34,121 nucleotides of DNA from positions 1-34,121 of IMG/VR virus record IMGVR_UViG_3300044644_002649. The stretch is one strand, 5' to 3'. This DNA comes from a virus. A model generated the notes under the pieces. The model saw only the letters and a program-made list of their open reading frames with translations. It was not told where the DNA came from and did not search any database. Below are positions 25,848 through 33,650 of this stretch, piece by piece. Made by a program: the position numbers and the translations under genes. How positions within the stretch are numbered: position 1 is the stretch's first letter; each line of letters opens with the position of its first letter.

Positions 25848-25978
25848 ATTTGTTCCAGCTCGCTATGGTGAACATACGACTTGAATTCAAGTTGTCCAAT
25901 TTGCGGCCCCGACTAGGTAGGAACGCCTGTGCAGTGTCAAGGGTTCGGGGGGCTGTAGTTGACGGCGGGGCAGGGGGC
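25848..25978. promoter_or_regulatory. Divergent control region between late (minus) and accessory (plus) operons
   Basis: This gap separates two opposite transcription units. It contains the perfect 14-bp palindrome ACTTGAATTCAAGT (25879-25892), a minus-strand TTGACA at about 25935-25940 that could be a -35 element for the late genes (with TACCTA 15 nt downstream as a poor -10), and a plus-strand TTGACG box (25959-25964) near the ParB-like start. The palindrome is the best operator candidate. Confidence 0.55.
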
Positions 25979-26758
25979 ATGAGCATTCCCGTGCATTGCG
26001 CCCACACCCGCCTCCTTGATCCCAACACGCTGAAACCCAATCCGGTTAATCCGAACCGCCACAGCGCCCACCAAATCCAACTTCTCGCGTCGATCATCCA
26101 GGAGCAGGGTTGGCGCAATCCAGTCACCGTATCCAAGCGCTCCGGTCTGATCGTTCGCGGGCATGGCCGCTTGGAGGCCGCACTTTTGATTGGTTGCGAA
26201 ACAATCCCAGTCGACGAGCAGGACTATGCAAGTGAGGCGGAGGAGCTTGCTGATCTGCTCGCCGACAACCGCCTCTCGGAATTGGCCGAACTCGACGAGG
26301 ACGAATTGCGGCGAGTTCTCAAATCGATTGGTGAATCGGATCCGAACTTCGACCTCGAGCTCACGGGGTTCATGGACGATGAGATCCGCAAGCTCATGGA
26401 TGAGGCAGCCAATCCGGAGGATGAACTCGAAACGATTCCACGCATGGAATGCCAAGCGTTCGAACACCACGACTACCTTGTCTTCATGTTCCACGACCTG
26501 CGCGACTGGATGCAGGCACTCCAACTGATGGGGGTTGGCGAGGTTGACTACTCCATCACCCGCAGAACCAAAAAAATCGGCCTCGGCCGCGTCATCCATG
26601 GAAAACGACTCCTCGAACTCTGCCGCCGAGCCAGCATGGCCGGAATTGCGCCCCCTGAAACTCAGGCTCTTGATTCTAAGCCGAAGCCGGAGCCGCTCGA
26701 TCACGAGCCACAAGTTGTTTCCCACGGCAACGCTGCTGGTTCCCGCAAGCGAAGCTGA
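25979..26758 (+). CDS. ParB-fold protein (ParB/Srx nuclease-like domain)
   Basis: The 259-residue product has an N-terminal ParB-type domain: LKPNPVNPNRHSAHQIQLLASIIQEQGWRNPVTVSKRSGLIVRGHGRLEAALLIGCETIPV is the conserved region, with GHGRLEA as box II. A variable acidic part and a C-terminal region (about residues 160-259) follow. The start at 25979 is chosen because a TTGACG box lies 20 nt before it and the ParB region begins soon after. ParB-fold proteins in phages can act as nucleases or adaptors next to DNA-modifying enzymes; the next gene fits that. The last 54 codons overlap the next gene in another frame. Confidence 0.8.
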   Translation: MSIPVHCAHTRLLDPNTLKPNPVNPNRHSAHQIQLLASIIQEQGWRNPVTVSKRSGLIVRGHGRLEAALLIGCETIPVDEQDYASEAEELADLLADNRLSELAELDEDELRRVLKSIGESDPNFDLELTGFMDDEIRKLMDEAANPEDELETIPRMECQAFEHHDYLVFMFHDLRDWMQALQLMGVGEVDYSITRRTKKIGLGRVIHGKRLLELCRRASMAGIAPPETQALDSKPKPEPLDHEPQVVSHGNAAGSRKRS

Positions 26759-27389
26759 ACATTACGCCCACACCGGGTTGGAAATTGAAACCATCCCCGA
26801 TGAGATCGCCGGCATCAGCGCGGTGAGGAACTGGGTTTTGAAGCACTTCACCGATGATGCGATCGTCATGCTCGACGATGATATTTCCGCCTGTGTCTGC
26901 ATGGTCAGCCTGAGGTGTAGAAAACTTTCGATCGAGGAAACCCAAGCAATGATCGAAAACTCGGCATGGTCCGCGCGTGGGGCAGGGGCCCGTTTGTTTG
27001 GCTGGCACCAGAGAAGCGATCCAAGGCTCCTTCAACGCAACGATCCATTTGGTGTGAATCACTGGGTCGGCGGGGCGGTTGGGGTGGTTCGCGATGATAG
27101 AGGTGGGGTGCCCAAGTGGGACGAACTACTCAAGTGCAAGTGCGACATTGATGCCACGCTCCAGGAGTTGATGGACAACCGCCTGGTATGGAACGAAGCG
27201 AGGTTCTGTTTCGTGCAAGAGCGCGACAAGAACCTTGGCGGCAACAGCCTGTTTCGCAGCGAGGAACGCATCGCCACCGAGAAGCGCTACCTCAAGCGCA
27301 AGTGGAAGGCCCACATCCGCCTCGAAAACTACAAGAGCCAAGACCGCGTTTCGATGGACGCGCCACGCCGCCAATCCGTGAAGGTCTGA
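26598..27389 (+). CDS. TET-associated-glycosyltransferase-like protein (GT-A fold)
   Basis: This 263-residue protein has the motifs of TET-associated glycosyltransferases (TAGT): an N-terminal strand LRLLILSRSRSRS then SHKLFPTATLLVPASEAEHY, an ETIPDEIAGISAVRNW motif, DDAIVMLDDDIS (the DDD metal-binding triad) and HWVGGAVGVVRDDRGGVP. Family members transfer sugars to modified bases in phage DNA. The exact start is unclear: ATG at 26598 is used, 26535 is possible, and any start overlaps the ParB gene by about 95 nt or more because the first conserved strand lies inside it. The repeated Ser-Arg run results from this double coding. Confidence 0.6.
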   Translation: MENDSSNSAAEPAWPELRPLKLRLLILSRSRSRSITSHKLFPTATLLVPASEAEHYAHTGLEIETIPDEIAGISAVRNWVLKHFTDDAIVMLDDDISACVCMVSLRCRKLSIEETQAMIENSAWSARGAGARLFGWHQRSDPRLLQRNDPFGVNHWVGGAVGVVRDDRGGVPKWDELLKCKCDIDATLQELMDNRLVWNEARFCFVQERDKNLGGNSLFRSEERIATEKRYLKRKWKAHIRLENYKSQDRVSMDAPRRQSVKV

Positions 27390-27446: not shown

Positions 27447-28004
27447 ATGAGTTATCACCTCAACACGATACGCGGATATTCATTCCCAGCGGTTTCCAGC
27501 GCCATGCAGAAAGCCATTCGGCGCGGCGATGCCAAACTTGCCGGCTACTGGGCACTTGAACTTTGGGCCAGTGGATTTGGTCAGTATGTCTGGCGGCGCT
27601 TGCTCACCGTGAGCGCGGAGGACTGCTGGGGAATCCTCACGGCGGAAATAAAAGCCCTGCACGACAGCTACACCGAGATCAATCAGCATGTGCCCAAAGG
27701 AAAACCCAAGGGGCGCATCTTCATATCCAAAGCGGTCATCCTTCTCTGCATGGCCAAGAAGAGCCGCGATGCCGACCACCTTCAAAACTTTGTCTATGAC
27801 CAGCAGGCCGGGCTTGATGCTGCCACGCTGACCGACGAACTCGAACAGGCAGGTCAATACATCCCCATACCCGACTACGCCTATGACTGCCACACGCCGC
27901 AGGGCCGACGGATGGGCAAAACCAAAGCCGAGTTTTTCCGCCAGGAGCAAGACGCCCTAGCGCCCTTCATTCCCGGCCTGTTCGACAACCTCATTGATTC
28001 CTAA
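27447..28004 (+). CDS. Stand-alone MgsA/RarA C-terminal-like protein
   Basis: The N-terminal half of this 185-residue protein (SSAMQKAIRRGDAKLAGYWALELWASGFGQYVWRRLL at about 15-52) matches the pattern of the C-terminal domain of RarA/MgsA-type clamp-loader-like ATPases, which mediates oligomerisation. No AAA+ ATPase part is present, so this is a domain-only protein. The last third includes YDCHTPQGRRMGKTKAEFF. Such proteins occur in phages and plasmids, and a role in replication or recombination is likely but unproven. Confidence 0.55.
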   Translation: MSYHLNTIRGYSFPAVSSAMQKAIRRGDAKLAGYWALELWASGFGQYVWRRLLTVSAEDCWGILTAEIKALHDSYTEINQHVPKGKPKGRIFISKAVILLCMAKKSRDADHLQNFVYDQQAGLDAATLTDELEQAGQYIPIPDYAYDCHTPQGRRMGKTKAEFFRQEQDALAPFIPGLFDNLIDS

Positions 28005-28025: not shown

Positions 28026-28307
28026 ATGGGCATACACCTGATGCAACCCCGCTTCCCGCTGGGCAAAATATTCGCCACCCCCGGTGCCATCGCGCTCGAT
28101 GTCGACCTGACCCAATACCTGCGACGTCACCACTGCGGTGATTGGGGCGAAGCACTCTGCGACGAGGATCGCAGAACAAACGATGAAGCGCTCGACGATG
28201 GGTTCCGGCTATTGAGTTGCTACCGCACACCCGCTGGCGACCGCCTCTACATCATCACCGAACACGATAGGTCGACGACGACGATCTTGCTGCCGAGTGA
28301 GTATTGA
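28026..28307 (+). CDS. Small conserved plasmid/phage-type protein
   Basis: This 93-residue protein has the signature RFPLGKIFATPGA, then CGDWGEALCDEDRRTNDEAL and RLLSCYRTPAGDRLYIITEHDRSTTTILLPSEY. This matches a widespread small family I know from plasmids and phages, without a known function. A start at the second Met (28041) is also possible. It lies 21 nt after the RarA-like gene, in the same direction. Confidence 0.7.
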   Translation: MGIHLMQPRFPLGKIFATPGAIALDVDLTQYLRRHHCGDWGEALCDEDRRTNDEALDDGFRLLSCYRTPAGDRLYIITEHDRSTTTILLPSEY

Positions 28308-28319
28308 TGAAGTGCCGTC

Positions 28320-28338
28320 CAATCCGCATGCCAACGGG
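28320..28338. repeat. 19-bp direct repeat, left copy
   Basis: CAATCCGCATGCCAACGGG occurs here and identically at 29512-29530. The two copies bracket the DUF6448-like gene and the next plus-strand gene. A related GCGGATGG follows each copy within about 50 nt. Confidence 0.7.
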
Positions 28339-28460: not shown

Positions 28461-29087
28461 TCAATGGCAGCATCTCTCCTTTGCCTTAGGTCCGGCGTGA
28501 TCTGGTTGCTGACCAGCAATCGCGGCGTGGACGTTCTCCACATAATGCATGTAGTCCACATACGCTGCGACGAATTCCCTCCCAGCCTCGAGATTGTCGT
28601 CTTTATGTTTTGCGGCTTCGACTGCACGATCCAATTTTTGCCTAATGACTTTACCCATCTGGTCATTAATTTCCCGGATCATCTCGTCCGCCGATCGTCC
28701 TTGCAGCGCCATGTCGGCCATGGCAATCACAGGATCGACCGGTTCGTCCTTTACGCCGCTGTATGGAGCCCCTTCGCCCGCTCTGTGCAGGCGCACCAGT
28801 GTTTCAATGAATTGACGATCGGCGAGTTCCTTTGCTTCAGGCCCTTTGGCGCGTACTGTTTGAGTCCTTGCAAACGCGGCCCTGATTTCAGCCTCGCGAT
28901 CCTTTTTGATCCACTTCAGCACGGGAGTGACATCGCCCTTTTCTAAGGCCGCTCTCGCTTCCTGTATCACAGGCCCCTTTTCCGTGTCGCAGTGTGCTAC
29001 GGCTGTTTTGCTGATCGTGAGCCAACATATGCTGATCAATGACGCGCAGCCCGTTCCTATAATTCTGGAAAATTGCTTGGTTCTCAT
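28461..29087 (-). CDS. DUF6448-like exported protein (cargo)
   Basis: This 208-residue protein starts at 29087 with a signal sequence (MRTKQFSRIIGTGCASLISI then CWLTISKTAVAHC) and the mature start AHCDTEKGPVIQEARAALEKGDVTPVLKWIKKDREAEIRAAFARTQ is characteristic of a family found in many bacteria (DUF6448-type). FIETLVRLHRAGEGAPYSGVK continues the pattern. Its role is unknown. It runs against the surrounding plus-strand genes and sits between two 19-bp direct repeats, which suggests cargo inserted into the phage. Confidence 0.7.
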   Translation of the reverse strand: MRTKQFSRIIGTGCASLISICWLTISKTAVAHCDTEKGPVIQEARAALEKGDVTPVLKWIKKDREAEIRAAFARTQTVRAKGPEAKELADRQFIETLVRLHRAGEGAPYSGVKDEPVDPVIAMADMALQGRSADEMIREINDQMGKVIRQKLDRAVEAAKHKDDNLEAGREFVAAYVDYMHYVENVHAAIAGQQPDHAGPKAKERCCH

Positions 29088-29132
29088 AGTGATTTTTTTG
29101 GTTTTAGTTGTGATTTTGATGCATTCAACCCG

Positions 29133-29183
29133 ATGGCCCGCGAGTTGATCGAAGTCAACCTGCCCGATGGCGTGGACGGCTAA
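29133..29183 (+). pseudogene. Short coding remnant
   Basis: A 16-codon reading, MARELIEVNLPDGVDG, ends in TAA 3 nt before the next gene and looks like the tail of a longer protein whose front is missing. It lies next to the start of the oppositely oriented DUF6448-like gene, consistent with truncation by that insertion. It could also be chance. Confidence 0.25.
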
Positions 29184-29186
29184 CTC

Positions 29187-29501
29187 ATGCCGCGCGAGAG
29201 CACGTTTTTGAAGACCGCCAACGTGATAGGTCGTCGTGATGGCACGCCGGACTTCGTCTTCCATATTTCTGACTACGTGTTCGAGGGGGCGAACTTGGTG
29301 CGTCATCTCTCAGCCGGCGTCGAAATCCGCTTGGGCTACAACCATGTCATCGGCGGGATCGACCGTATCACGCCTTGGATGCACAAGGATTCCCTGATTG
29401 GCCGCGTGGTGAAGTTCAGCCACCAACCCAGCGGCGCCAAAGAAGCGCCCCGGTTTCCGAAGTTCATCGGCTTCCGCGAAACTTGGGACATGAGTGCCTA
29501 A
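29187..29501 (+). CDS. Small protein with possible ligase OB-domain-like end
   Basis: The C-terminus of this 104-residue protein (LIGRVVKFSHQPSGAKEAPR, then FPKFIGFRETWDM) reads like the last strand pair of ATP-dependent DNA ligase OB domains, with the PRFPxFxGFR phrase. The rest (FEGANLVRHLSAGVEIRLGYNHVIGGIDRIT) is not recognised and there is no nucleotidyltransferase domain or KxDG motif. It may be a truncated ligase or a separate small family. Confidence 0.5.
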   Translation: MPRESTFLKTANVIGRRDGTPDFVFHISDYVFEGANLVRHLSAGVEIRLGYNHVIGGIDRITPWMHKDSLIGRVVKFSHQPSGAKEAPRFPKFIGFRETWDMSA

Positions 29502-29572
29502 TGCGCTTGTTCAATCCGCATGCCAACGGGGATACGCCGCGAAAAATGGCCGACCAATATGGTGCGAACTGA
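29501..29572 (+). CDS. Possible small ORF coupled to the previous gene
   Basis: The stop and start overlap as TAATG. The 23-residue product MRLFNPHANGDTPRKMADQY ends in GAN. Its phrase NPHANG is encoded by the 19-bp direct repeat. It may be coupled to the preceding gene or be a by-product of the repeat. Confidence 0.25.
   Translation: MRLFNPHANGDTPRKMADQYGAN
29512..29530. repeat. 19-bp direct repeat, right copy
   Basis: It is identical to 28320-28338 (CAATCCGCATGCCAACGGG). The distance between copies is 1192 bp, which would be the size of the inserted unit. Confidence 0.7.
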
Positions 29573-29583
29573 CGTGCGGATGG

Positions 29584-29643
29584 CGCGCGACAAAACGCGC
29601 GGATGGCTGGCAGGAGGAAGGATGTCGGAACGCACATCCCTCC
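29584..29643 (+). other. Two hairpins before the amidoligase gene
   Basis: CGCGCG pairs with CGCGCG over a 6-nt loop ACAAAA (29584-29601). GGATGT pairs with ACATCC over an 8-nt loop (29620-29639). No T-run follows either one, so they are not clear terminators. They occupy the gap before the amidoligase start and may be mRNA structures. Confidence 0.35.
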
Positions 29644-29658
29644 GGCACCAGATCCTAA

Positions 29659-30603
29659 ATGAAACCATCAGATAAGAAGGCCGAAGCCATTACCTTCGGA
29701 GTTGAACTCGAAACCACCATTCCCGTGCTCTCCGGCGTGGTGGTTGGAAATTACCACAACGGCATCAGTGTAAGAGCTGGTGTTGCCACCGGATCCAGCA
29801 CCCCGCTGAACGCACCCACATTCAATGGCGAGTGTTGGCGGGCCGAACGCGACGGTTCCATTCGTGCCCGCGCCGACCGTACGGCATGCGAATTTGTTTC
29901 GCCCATCCTCAGTGGCAGCGATGGGGTGCAACACCTCATTGAATTCGTCGAATGGGCCAACGCGATTGGTGCCAACGTCAACGCAAGCTGCGGCTGTCAC
30001 ATCACCGTGGGCATCGCATCCATCATTGGCACCGAAGACCTGCAAGCGATGAGCGACTTTGCCCGCAAGCTGGCTCACATCACCCGCTGGCATGCCATGA
30101 GCCTCTATGGCCAAACGGGCACTGGCCGCCATCTCAACCGCTATAGCCACATGCTCGGAGATGATGTGGGGAAATTGGTTCGCCAGATGCATCGGGGCAA
30201 GGACCCCAAGCGCAAGTTGAGCGCTGCACGTGAGTGTGGCAGGGGAATGATCAACTTCCAAAAACTCTTCACCCACGGAGTGATCGAATTCCGGGTCTTT
30301 GCCGGCACACTCAACCGCCAAAAACTTCTTCACCACCTTGCCACGGTGTTGGGGCTTTGCCGCCGGGCCGCCGAGGTGGATTGCCTCGGGTCATTCAAGA
30401 AGAACAAGACCCAAGCGAAACGCACAGCCACCGCCAAAGACGCGCTGATGTTCCTGTGGGATTACCTTGGATGGACCGGCAGCAAGCGACCTGTGGCACT
30501 TGGTCTCATCGGCCCACTCCATTCGGAATTCGATGCCTACCGCAAGATCGCCGAGCGGCTCTGCCGCCGCTTCGATTCCCGCTTTCCCTTCGCCAACCTC
30601 TGA
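29659..30603 (+). CDS. Amidoligase (COOH-NH2 ligase, Amidoligase_2-type)
   Basis: Enzymes of this glutamine-synthetase-related fold join carboxyl and amino groups using ATP. The 314-residue protein has the N-terminal TFGVELET (residues 12-19), WRAERDGSI (60-68), EFVSPIL (78-84), CGCHITVG (111-118) and VIEFRVFAGTLN (about 207-218), the series of acidic motifs that bind metal and nucleotide in this family. The substrate is unknown. The next gene encodes a class II glutamine amidotransferase, a pairing described for phage and bacterial amidoligase cassettes. Confidence 0.8.
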   Translation: MKPSDKKAEAITFGVELETTIPVLSGVVVGNYHNGISVRAGVATGSSTPLNAPTFNGECWRAERDGSIRARADRTACEFVSPILSGSDGVQHLIEFVEWANAIGANVNASCGCHITVGIASIIGTEDLQAMSDFARKLAHITRWHAMSLYGQTGTGRHLNRYSHMLGDDVGKLVRQMHRGKDPKRKLSAARECGRGMINFQKLFTHGVIEFRVFAGTLNRQKLLHHLATVLGLCRRAAEVDCLGSFKKNKTQAKRTATAKDALMFLWDYLGWTGSKRPVALGLIGPLHSEFDAYRKIAERLCRRFDSRFPFANL

Positions 30604-30617
30604 TCCCTCCGACTGCC

Positions 30618-31259
30618 ATGTGTGTGATCCTTGTATGCCCGGAGAACGTGCGCCCAGACCGCGCAACCATCGATGCCTGCCACGCCGCCAACCCCCACGG
30701 TGCCGGTGTGGCGTGGCGGGAAAATGGCGAGGTGCGATGGAGCAAAGGCCTCGATCCGGATGAAGTCGAACGCCTGATTGGTGAACTGCCCGGTGAAATC
30801 ATTATCCACTTTCGATGGGCCAGCGTGGGGGAGGTGACTCCCAAACTCTGCCATCCATTCCCGATATCGGCCCGCGTGTCCACCCGCCTCACCGGCCATG
30901 CCCGCGCGGTGCTCTTCCACAATGGCACTTGGTGCCAATGGCGCGACACCCTACGCCGCATGCCCAAGCACCGGATGCCCGACGGGCTGCTTTCCGACAC
31001 TCGTGTGGCTGCCTCGCTGGTCGATCTCTGCGGCATGGAATTCCTCCACAAACTGCCAGGCCGCTATGTGTTCTTCGATCGCGACTTCACCGAACTCTTC
31101 GGCGATTGGCGGCACTTCCGCGGGATGATGGCGAGCAATCTCCACTTCATGCCCGTGCGCGATACGCGACCCGAATTCCTTCGCCCCAAACCCACGCTAA
31201 TACGCCACGAGGAAGCCTATTTTGCCGACCTCGATGACGATGAACTCCCCAACTTCTGA
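30618..31259 (+). CDS. Class II glutamine amidotransferase-like protein
   Basis: This 213-residue protein starts MCVILVCPENVRP with Cys2, the N-terminal nucleophile of Ntn-type class II amidotransferases once Met is removed. GAGVAWRENGEVRWSKG, IIIHFRWASVGEV and LFHNGTW follow in the usual order of the GATase II fold (the HNG is typical). It starts 15 nt after the amidoligase gene. It may release ammonia from glutamine or act as an amidohydrolase for the ligase product; which is unknown. Confidence 0.75.
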   Translation: MCVILVCPENVRPDRATIDACHAANPHGAGVAWRENGEVRWSKGLDPDEVERLIGELPGEIIIHFRWASVGEVTPKLCHPFPISARVSTRLTGHARAVLFHNGTWCQWRDTLRRMPKHRMPDGLLSDTRVAASLVDLCGMEFLHKLPGRYVFFDRDFTELFGDWRHFRGMMASNLHFMPVRDTRPEFLRPKPTLIRHEEAYFADLDDDELPNF

Positions 31260-32187: not shown

Positions 32188-33444
32188 TCAGCCGGTAAAC
32201 CTCTCCAACAAGCTCAGCATGCGATCGCTTCGTTGTGCGACGATGTCGATGGCCGCTTGATTTCGCAATGTTGGTAGGCCTTCGCTGTCATGAATGGCTT
32301 CGATGGTCTTGCGACAAAGCTCGCCGATTCTTTCTCGAACCATCGGCCAACCGAGTTTTGCCTGGCCGCAGAGTTGTTTGAAATGCTCTGGTGAAACCTC
32401 TGCTAGCGACGAGGCGCTGCCGATCTTCATCGAAAGTGCGCTTGAAAGCTCTGGCCATGCCATCGTGCACACTTGATCGTAGAGCGGTGCCATCCTGCGG
32501 GTTTTTTTCGCATAGAGAAACGAGTGGTTTTTTGCGTGTGCATCCGCATTGCCCGTCACCACCGCGAAGATCACCGCATCCAGCATGTTCCGAATGTCCA
32601 GCACCGGCGTGGTGGACCAATCGCGGATCAGTTGAAAGCACTCCCGCAATGAGGGGCCGCCCTCCTGCTGATATTTGCGCGACGATGGATAGCCCAAAGC
32701 CTGGCAAAAATCTTCCTGATGCAGACGTTTGGTGACTGTGCCTGACTCCTTGACACGATCATATCGTTTCGCGATCAGGCATGGCACGCTTCCGATGTTC
32801 TCTTCCCATACCTCGGCGGCATCCAATCCGATGCGGCGGGCAAGTGCCATGCACCAAGCTTCATTTTCGCTGAGCCCCGGAAAACGTATGGGCTCGGGCT
32901 TGATGATGTGCGTGCTTGGGGTGTCACCCAGTGGTAAGCCAAATTGTTGAGTGCCATCCGGTTTGGTATCGATCACCACTGGCAGCTTGACCTGAGCCCC
33001 GGCGAGCGAGAGCCGCAATCCTTTCTCACCAGCTAGCAGCGGCCGTTGCGGTAAGAGCGTCATGATTTCCGCTGCATCCGCTTCGTTCAGCCAGCGCACT
33101 TCGTCATTCGATCGAGTTTTATTCATCGCCTCCTCCGGCACGAGTGAAATGGCTCCGGCACATTCGCCACCGATTCGCTCTAGCATCGCATAGTCGTTGT
33201 TCACGCTGATGCCCAGATTCCTAGCCACCTGATCCCGCGCTTCGGCCTCCGGCAACAAGCCACCGAAGAAGAGGCCCGCCCGCTGGCCATCGAATGGCTC
33301 GGGTTGCAGCGGCAACTGCCTCGACAGAGCGTATGCATCCTCTTGGGCCAACCAGTCTGCGTCATAGCGGAAGACCAGTTGTCCGGCGTTATCTTCAAGC
33401 ACGCCGACCCGCTTGCCATGCATGTGAACGATCAAGGATTTCAT
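32188..33444 (-). CDS. hipA: HipA-type serine/threonine kinase toxin
   Basis: HipA kinases arrest growth by phosphorylating targets such as glutamyl-tRNA synthetase, and are neutralised by HipB. The start at 33444 is chosen because it overlaps the hipB stop as ATGA; an upstream start would add three residues. The 418-residue protein has the N-terminal GQLVFRYDADWLA and LFFGGLLPE, the kinase-like loop AGAQVKLPVV and STHIIKPEP, LIAKRYDRV, and the catalytic GNADAHAKNHS (about 298-308) followed by PLYDQV, as in active family members. It appears intact. Confidence 0.92.
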   Translation of the reverse strand: MKSLIVHMHGKRVGVLEDNAGQLVFRYDADWLAQEDAYALSRQLPLQPEPFDGQRAGLFFGGLLPEAEARDQVARNLGISVNNDYAMLERIGGECAGAISLVPEEAMNKTRSNDEVRWLNEADAAEIMTLLPQRPLLAGEKGLRLSLAGAQVKLPVVIDTKPDGTQQFGLPLGDTPSTHIIKPEPIRFPGLSENEAWCMALARRIGLDAAEVWEENIGSVPCLIAKRYDRVKESGTVTKRLHQEDFCQALGYPSSRKYQQEGGPSLRECFQLIRDWSTTPVLDIRNMLDAVIFAVVTGNADAHAKNHSFLYAKKTRRMAPLYDQVCTMAWPELSSALSMKIGSASSLAEVSPEHFKQLCGQAKLGWPMVRERIGELCRKTIEAIHDSEGLPTLRNQAAIDIVAQRSDRMLSLLERFTG

Positions 33445-33650
33445 GGCTCGCAAATCTCCAAGTTCAATCCCAAGGCCCTAGCGATCTCCAGTGCCTTGCC
33501 CAACTGGCAGCTTGGCTTGCCCTTTTCCAAATCAATGATGAAGCGCAACCCCGTGCCCGAGGTCATGGCCAAATCCTTCTGGGTCACTTTCAAACGGCGT
33601 CTCTGCTCGCGTATCGCCTGACCGAGGCTTTTTGCATCGATGATTTTCAT
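33441..33650 (-). CDS. hipB: HipB-type antitoxin and autorepressor
   Basis: This 69-residue protein has an XRE-type HTH (LGQAIREQRRRLKVTQKDLAMTSGTGLRFIIDLEKGKPSCQLGKALEIARALGLNLEI) and almost nothing else, as is usual for HipB. It binds HipA and represses the operon. It lies upstream of hipA and overlaps it by 4 nt. Candidate operators are at 33652-33667 and 33701-33765. Confidence 0.9.
   Translation of the reverse strand: MKIIDAKSLGQAIREQRRRLKVTQKDLAMTSGTGLRFIIDLEKGKPSCQLGKALEIARALGLNLEICEP

Follow-up and report, generated by a model that had tools for sequence, protein, structure and literature searches.

The DNA analyzed here (the window) is an IMG/VR virus record of 34,121 bases, and the interval under study carries two genes on its plus strand. 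The record is from a virus of Verrucomicrobiota bacteria, and the two genes, which adjoin and are both intact, encode an amidoligase and a glutamine amidotransferase (GAT). The initial annotation had described this combination at this place, and open reading frames, profile matches, and predicted folds all bore it out. The two proteins probably act as one joint machine that transfers ammonia taken from glutamine to an acid group. The features of the interval and of the region immediately before it are as follows.

29560-29637, plus strand: conserved leader of ca. 78 nt before the amidoligase start (nhmmer, alignment)
29659-30603, plus strand: amidoligase of 314 aa with a glutamine-synthetase-like ATP-dependent ligase fold (PF12224; Pfam, PHROG, residues, AlphaFold)
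30618-31259, plus strand: stand-alone class II GAT (Ntn glutaminase) of 213 aa with Cys2 (GATase_6, motifs, AlphaFold)

Both proteins retain the residues and predicted folds of their families

The product of the first gene matched PF12224 (Amidoligase_2) at 40.4 bits, against a cutoff of 22, and PHROG 2443 ("amidoligase enzyme") with an E value of 1.2e-18. In an alignment of 37 amidoligases, the other members of which are 19 to 79% identical to the window protein, C111, G112, H114, N199, E210, and R212 were invariant and E16, E18, and E78 were nearly so; each of E16, E18, E78, H114, N199, E210, and R212 is either invariant or at least 90% conserved. Sequence profiles of PDB entries matched neither the amidoligase nor the GAT, and folds therefore were compared instead, using structure models made of the single chains. 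The AlphaFold model of the amidoligase (pLDDT, 92.8) has the fold of glutamine synthetase (GS), YbdK, and PafA. VIA-align gave a Z score of 12.4 against YbdK and 11.8 against glutamine synthetases, Foldseek also returned members of this superfamily, and Pup ligase/Dop also matched. Further matches were viral models with an amidoligase annotation, among them models from Arthrobacter phage Salgado and Pseudomonas phage tf.

The reading frame of the second gene is open from 30234, and the start that is common to its relatives is the ATG at 30618, which gives a protein beginning M-C-V-I-L. The window GAT scored 26.8 bits against PF13522 (GATase_6), just under the cutoff of 27, and 29 of 41 aligned members matched this family (E values up to 0.01), with 8 matching GATase_4. 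Further inspection of the protein revealed Cys2 and the motifs HFR, HNG, and SD. C2, H64, R66, N102, G103, S126, and D127 were invariant in the alignment of the 41 GATs, and these correspond to the Cys, Arg, Asn-Gly, and Asp residues of class II glutaminases (as in GlmS). The acidic motifs and Cys2 that had been reported for the pair are thus present and invariant or nearly so in relatives. The AlphaFold model of the GAT (pLDDT, 90.3) matched the glutaminases of GlmS, GFAT-1, PurF, and AsnB in Foldseek with a probability of 1.00.

In comparisons with relatives, dN/dS was 0.07 to 0.18 for the amidoligase and 0.11 to 0.18 for the GAT. These values indicate purifying selection on the two genes alike, and both look functional. 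A prophage copy in Chthoniobacter flavus Ellin428 (L120:6004-6963) is probably decaying, since an in-frame stop breaks its amidoligase gene, next to a GAT frame that is open; the gene for the MgsA_C protein (described below) matches in two pieces in this prophage.

The two genes travel together

Searches with the GAT profile yielded 62 viral loci together with 35 from bacterial genomes, two lists that overlap in part and that count loci rather than independent phages. The bacterial loci were all from Verrucomicrobiota (Akkermansiaceae, Prosthecobacter, Chthoniobacter flavus, and others). An amidoligase gene lay directly upstream of the GAT gene, mostly with a gap of 12 to 80 nt, in 84 of the 89 loci that have at least 900 bases upstream. 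This adjacency persists down to about 20 to 37% identity. In one phage (L083/L130), which accounts for one of the five remaining GAT loci, the two genes adjoin but in reversed order. The reverse test, made on amidoligase loci with enough downstream sequence, found a GAT at 49 of 67; the 18 loci lacking one all belong to a distant group of about 30 to 34% identity (below about 35%). Loss of key residues or of the linkage, either of which had been named as grounds for rejecting the pair, was confined to a few exceptions. A tblastn search for direct relatives of the pair in annotated phages found none.

Distance matrices were uninformative as to coevolution of the two proteins; their correlation (0.954) is hardly above that with neighboring genes (0.90 to 0.95).

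Record G022 (L130:6436-9393) contains two amidoligase genes, one following a kinase-like and a thymidylate-synthase-like gene and the other directly behind a GAT gene. The first of these sets looks like a base-modification cassette.

The pair is part of a core early block

The genes upstream of the pair are listed below.

25850-26758, plus strand: ParB-like domain protein, first gene of the block, likely start at about 25980 (PHROG 498/620, conserved in relatives)
26598-27389, plus strand: GT-A glycosyltransferase of the TAGT family with a DDD motif, overlapping the ParB-like gene (PF20691, phrog_842, alignment)
27447-28004, plus strand: MgsA/RarA C-terminal-domain (MgsA_C) protein (PF12002, phrog_16866)
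28026-28307, plus strand: conserved 93-aa protein, without an assigned function (conserved in relatives)
29187-29501, plus strand: remnant (C-terminal OB part) of an ATP-dependent DNA ligase (PF14743, phrog_114)

The glycosyltransferase was assigned from its sequence: the window protein scored 28.4 bits against PF20691, above the cutoff, and phrog_842 was matched by 14 of 14 members. Relatives may encode the AAA part of MgsA/RarA separately; in one of them, an AAA protein is encoded downstream of the MgsA/RarA C-domain gene. The DNA ligase is full length in several relatives (e.g., the homologue at L028:5141-6076).

The pair had been placed in a prophage's accessory operon by the initial annotation. 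We surveyed relatives using the large terminase, not the pair, as the seed and counted only loci whose sequence extended far enough past the terminase. Presence in these loci was 35/35 for both the ParB-like protein and the glycosyltransferase, 27/27 for the MgsA_C protein, 15/16 for the amidoligase, and 13/13 for the GAT. Because practically all relatives identified by way of the terminase have the block, the accessory description is wrong, and accessory prophage cargo is rejected. The pair instead belongs to a core early block comprised of the genes for the ParB-like protein, the TAGT-like glycosyltransferase, the MgsA/RarA C-domain protein, often a DNA ligase, the amidoligase, and the GAT.

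Five of 13 records contained an integrase gene, in many cases close to one of the ends, and this is consistent with a temperate lineage. In the window, an excisionase-like HTH gene was seen but no integrase. HipA-like and HipB-like genes lie at its right end (32188-33650). This pair seems to be phage cargo, because L011 and L096 carry it on that side of the block as well (HipA, 73% identity). In larger relatives the far arm carries a conserved gene for an NAD-dependent sugar epimerase (L025:17023-17895, L027:12379-13245, and L031:3155-4087), a possible source of sugar for the glycosyltransferase of the block.

A repeated leader precedes the amidoligase gene

Hairpins also had been noted ahead of the pair. 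What stands at this position is a strongly conserved, repeated leader (29560-29637), which in the window ends about 20 nt before the amidoligase start; a conserved secondary structure was unsupported, with no compensatory pairs. In Akkermansiaceae phages, the leader also precedes the DNA ligase gene and others lying in the stretch from ORF 28026 to the amidoligase gene, and some of these phages have two or three copies of it. Copies in relatives include L002:4650-4727, L005:4626-4703, L021:3363-3440, and two in L103 (4670-4746 and 5267-5328). The leader was not found in the Prosthecobacter or Chthoniobacter relatives tested. It is nearly unchanged between phages, and the silent sites of the gene that follows it (dS near 1) are conserved far less.

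A structured RNA or riboswitch was rejected. Rfam gave no match for the leader, its alignment contained no compensatory base pairs or covariation, and folding compared with shuffled sequences was mildly better in the window (z score, -2.56) but not in three relatives (-1.41, 0.71, and -0.70). The leader also can be read as an ORF (MVRDKRRGWLAGRRMSER). A conserved leader peptide is disfavored, and constraint on the nucleotides appears more likely, because the frame relative to the amidoligase shifts between phages and silent positions hardly vary. We prefer to read the element as a common expression signal that would have been spread by duplication.

A DUF6448 gene (28461-29306, minus strand) lies beside the truncated DNA ligase gene (29187-29501), and the two are flanked by a 22-base direct repeat (95%; 28317-28338 and 29509-29530). 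The repeat resembles the leader's upstream edge, and this suggests that cargo is swapped through recombination between leader copies.

A candidate two-protein amide synthetase

The enzyme families, residues, folds, and linkage of the pair are established; the coupling of the two proteins, the formation of a complex, its activity, and its substrate are what we infer. We consider it reasonably likely that the amidoligase and the GAT make up a single glutamine-dependent amide synthetase. Class II GATs as a rule supply ammonia to a partner synthase domain, as in GlmS, AsnB, and PurF. Here, the GAT would hydrolyze glutamine with its N-terminal Cys and pass the ammonia to the amidoligase. The latter would activate a carboxylate with ATP and Mg2+ via an acyl phosphate, as glutamine synthetase and YbdK do, and then form the amide. 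The reaction would be expected to take place in the cytoplasm, early in infection, because no added export domain was present in the models and alignments of the amidoligase and the GAT. Our leading guess for the substrate, drawn by analogy and held with moderate confidence, is a carboxylate on a peptide-like molecule of the host or phage, for example a protein or a peptidoglycan precursor. Arguing against the coupling, some amidoligases of the same superfamily have no GAT and could therefore use some amine besides ammonia; the broken amidoligase gene beside an open GAT frame in C. flavus likewise counts against it.

One alternative is a special case of the two-protein synthetase in which the substrate is fixed: the pair would amidate peptidoglycan or lipid II stem peptides, in the manner of MurT/GatD or AsnB, altering sensitivity to other phages or lysins and thereby causing superinfection exclusion. 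The initial annotation had raised superinfection exclusion, along with self-modification, as a possible role. The exclusion idea reportedly originated with Iyer et al. in 2009, as a published prediction for phiEco32. GAT-coupled amidation of cell-wall precursors in the cytosol is established chemistry, which speaks for this possibility, as does the partly temperate character of these phages, seen in the integrase genes described above and in loci that lie inside large Verrucomicrobiota contigs. The block, however, is DNA related (ParB, ligase, and MgsA/RarA, with the terminase nearby) and has no cell-wall genes as neighbors, and the pair is core in its lineage, whereas exclusion genes often are variable. 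Envelope exclusion is cited as a prediction for phage amidoligase and GATase genes in PMC10580990 and PMC11318856, but the passages concerned report no experiment on these genes. Overall, we regard exclusion through the envelope as possible but unlikely.

A second alternative is that the pair acts with the ParB-like and TAGT-like proteins to place an amide, or the amide of an amino acid, on a modified base, which would shield the phage DNA from restriction. The company that the pair keeps and the published CmoY system make such a role plausible in kind, if quite unlikely in our estimate. ParB-like and TAGT-like genes were in the same block as the pair in all 35 terminase-linked loci, and they also stand beside amidoligases of only 40 to 46% identity (L189 and L190). 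The PHROG of the glycosyltransferase family is annotated as a DNA-base glucosyltransferase. The phage protein CmoY, an amide ligase, attaches glycine to DNA at 5-carboxymethylcytosine; many phages with CmoY have ParBc proteins, and one cluster of these ligases has a glutaminase domain (PMC12783734). Additionally, one of the two amidoligases of the distant phage G022 adjoins thymidylate-synthase-like and kinase-like genes. On the other hand, amidoligase-GAT pairs also occur in phages without TAGT, and several Verrucomicrobiota loci with 5 to 7 kb of upstream sequence have neither ParB nor a glycosyltransferase.

The searches of these phages turned up no enzymes that would make known base handles of the hydroxylated, carboxymethylated, or methylated kind. 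The window and the Verrucomicrobiota relatives, whose records may be fragments, gave no match to PF12851 (Tet/JBP) or TIGR00740 (CmoA) and had no thymidylate-synthase-like gene. PF00145 (C5-methyltransferase) had no match in the window, and the only match in relatives was a 28-position fragment in G010. This is weak negative evidence against a DNA substrate, because the Tet/JBP search had no positive control (the control gave no match either) and the records may be incomplete. A stronger form of the proposal, which we hold to be very unlikely, is that the ParB-like/TAGT/amidoligase/GAT block makes up a DNA-modification pathway of Verrucomicrobiota phages that has yet to be described. In such a pathway, a ligase of the GS fold and a separate glutaminase would place an amide on a base or its sugar, with the handle coming from an unrecognized enzyme.

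Least probable is that the pair consists of auxiliary metabolic genes that recycle ammonia or fix it into metabolites for the infected host: a nitrogen or amino-acid role is proposed for planctomycete Phage-ZRK32, which carries amidoligase and glutamine amidotransferase genes, but in the relevant passages of PMC10945688 it is based on growth effects of the whole phage and not of these genes, and in the present phages the GAT would use up glutamine, the reverse of nitrogen assimilation, and the block has no other nitrogen gene.

Relationship to known systems

Phage amidoligase-GAT pairs already are known in LUZ24-like phages, OM43 phages, and others, and the pair described here is therefore an added example of a described class of phage enzymes. 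In the LUZ24-like phages (Pseudomonas phages tf, LUZ24, and UFV-P2), a PF12224 amidoligase and a GATase_6 protein are encoded in one early cluster, according to passages of PMC3890496. The two families are the same as in the window, and the phage tf amidoligase is a structural match to that of the window, but the sequences are too dissimilar to be matched by tblastn. UFV-P2, as described there, has an HNH gene between the amidoligase and GAT genes, as well as COOH-NH2 ligase and ATP-grasp genes; neither of the latter was found among the window genes scanned, a scan that did not cover every small ORF. MEP401/MEP402, marine OM43 phages, have the same two Pfam families in the portion of PMC10580990 that describes them, a relationship seen at the family level only.

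CmoY of Synechococcus phage S-B43 likewise is a phage ATP-dependent amide ligase, with ParBc neighbors in many phages and a glutaminase domain in one cluster (PMC12783734). It is asparagine-synthetase-like (AMP forming), whereas the window amidoligase is GS-like, and neither CmoA nor an intact CmoX-type methyltransferase of the 5cxmC system was found in the window or the relatives searched. YbdK, glutamine synthetase, and PafA resemble the window amidoligase in fold but are only about 9 to 16% identical to it. The glutaminase domains of GlmS, PurF, and AsnB share the class II Ntn fold and the Cys, Arg, Asn-Gly, and Asp motifs with the window GAT. Unlike these enzymes, the GAT is a stand-alone protein with no fused synthase domain.

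Amidoligase-GAT pairs are annotated in many phages, and for their function the passages of the literature cited here offer only predictions. The present group is set apart by the distinct and constant gene neighborhood of the pair, and the ParB, TAGT, and MgsA neighbors are what mark it off from the LUZ24-like cassettes. The result is a sharply bounded case, in which the pair is core to a lineage of Verrucomicrobiota phages and its partners are few and constant, and the question of the substrate therefore is testable.
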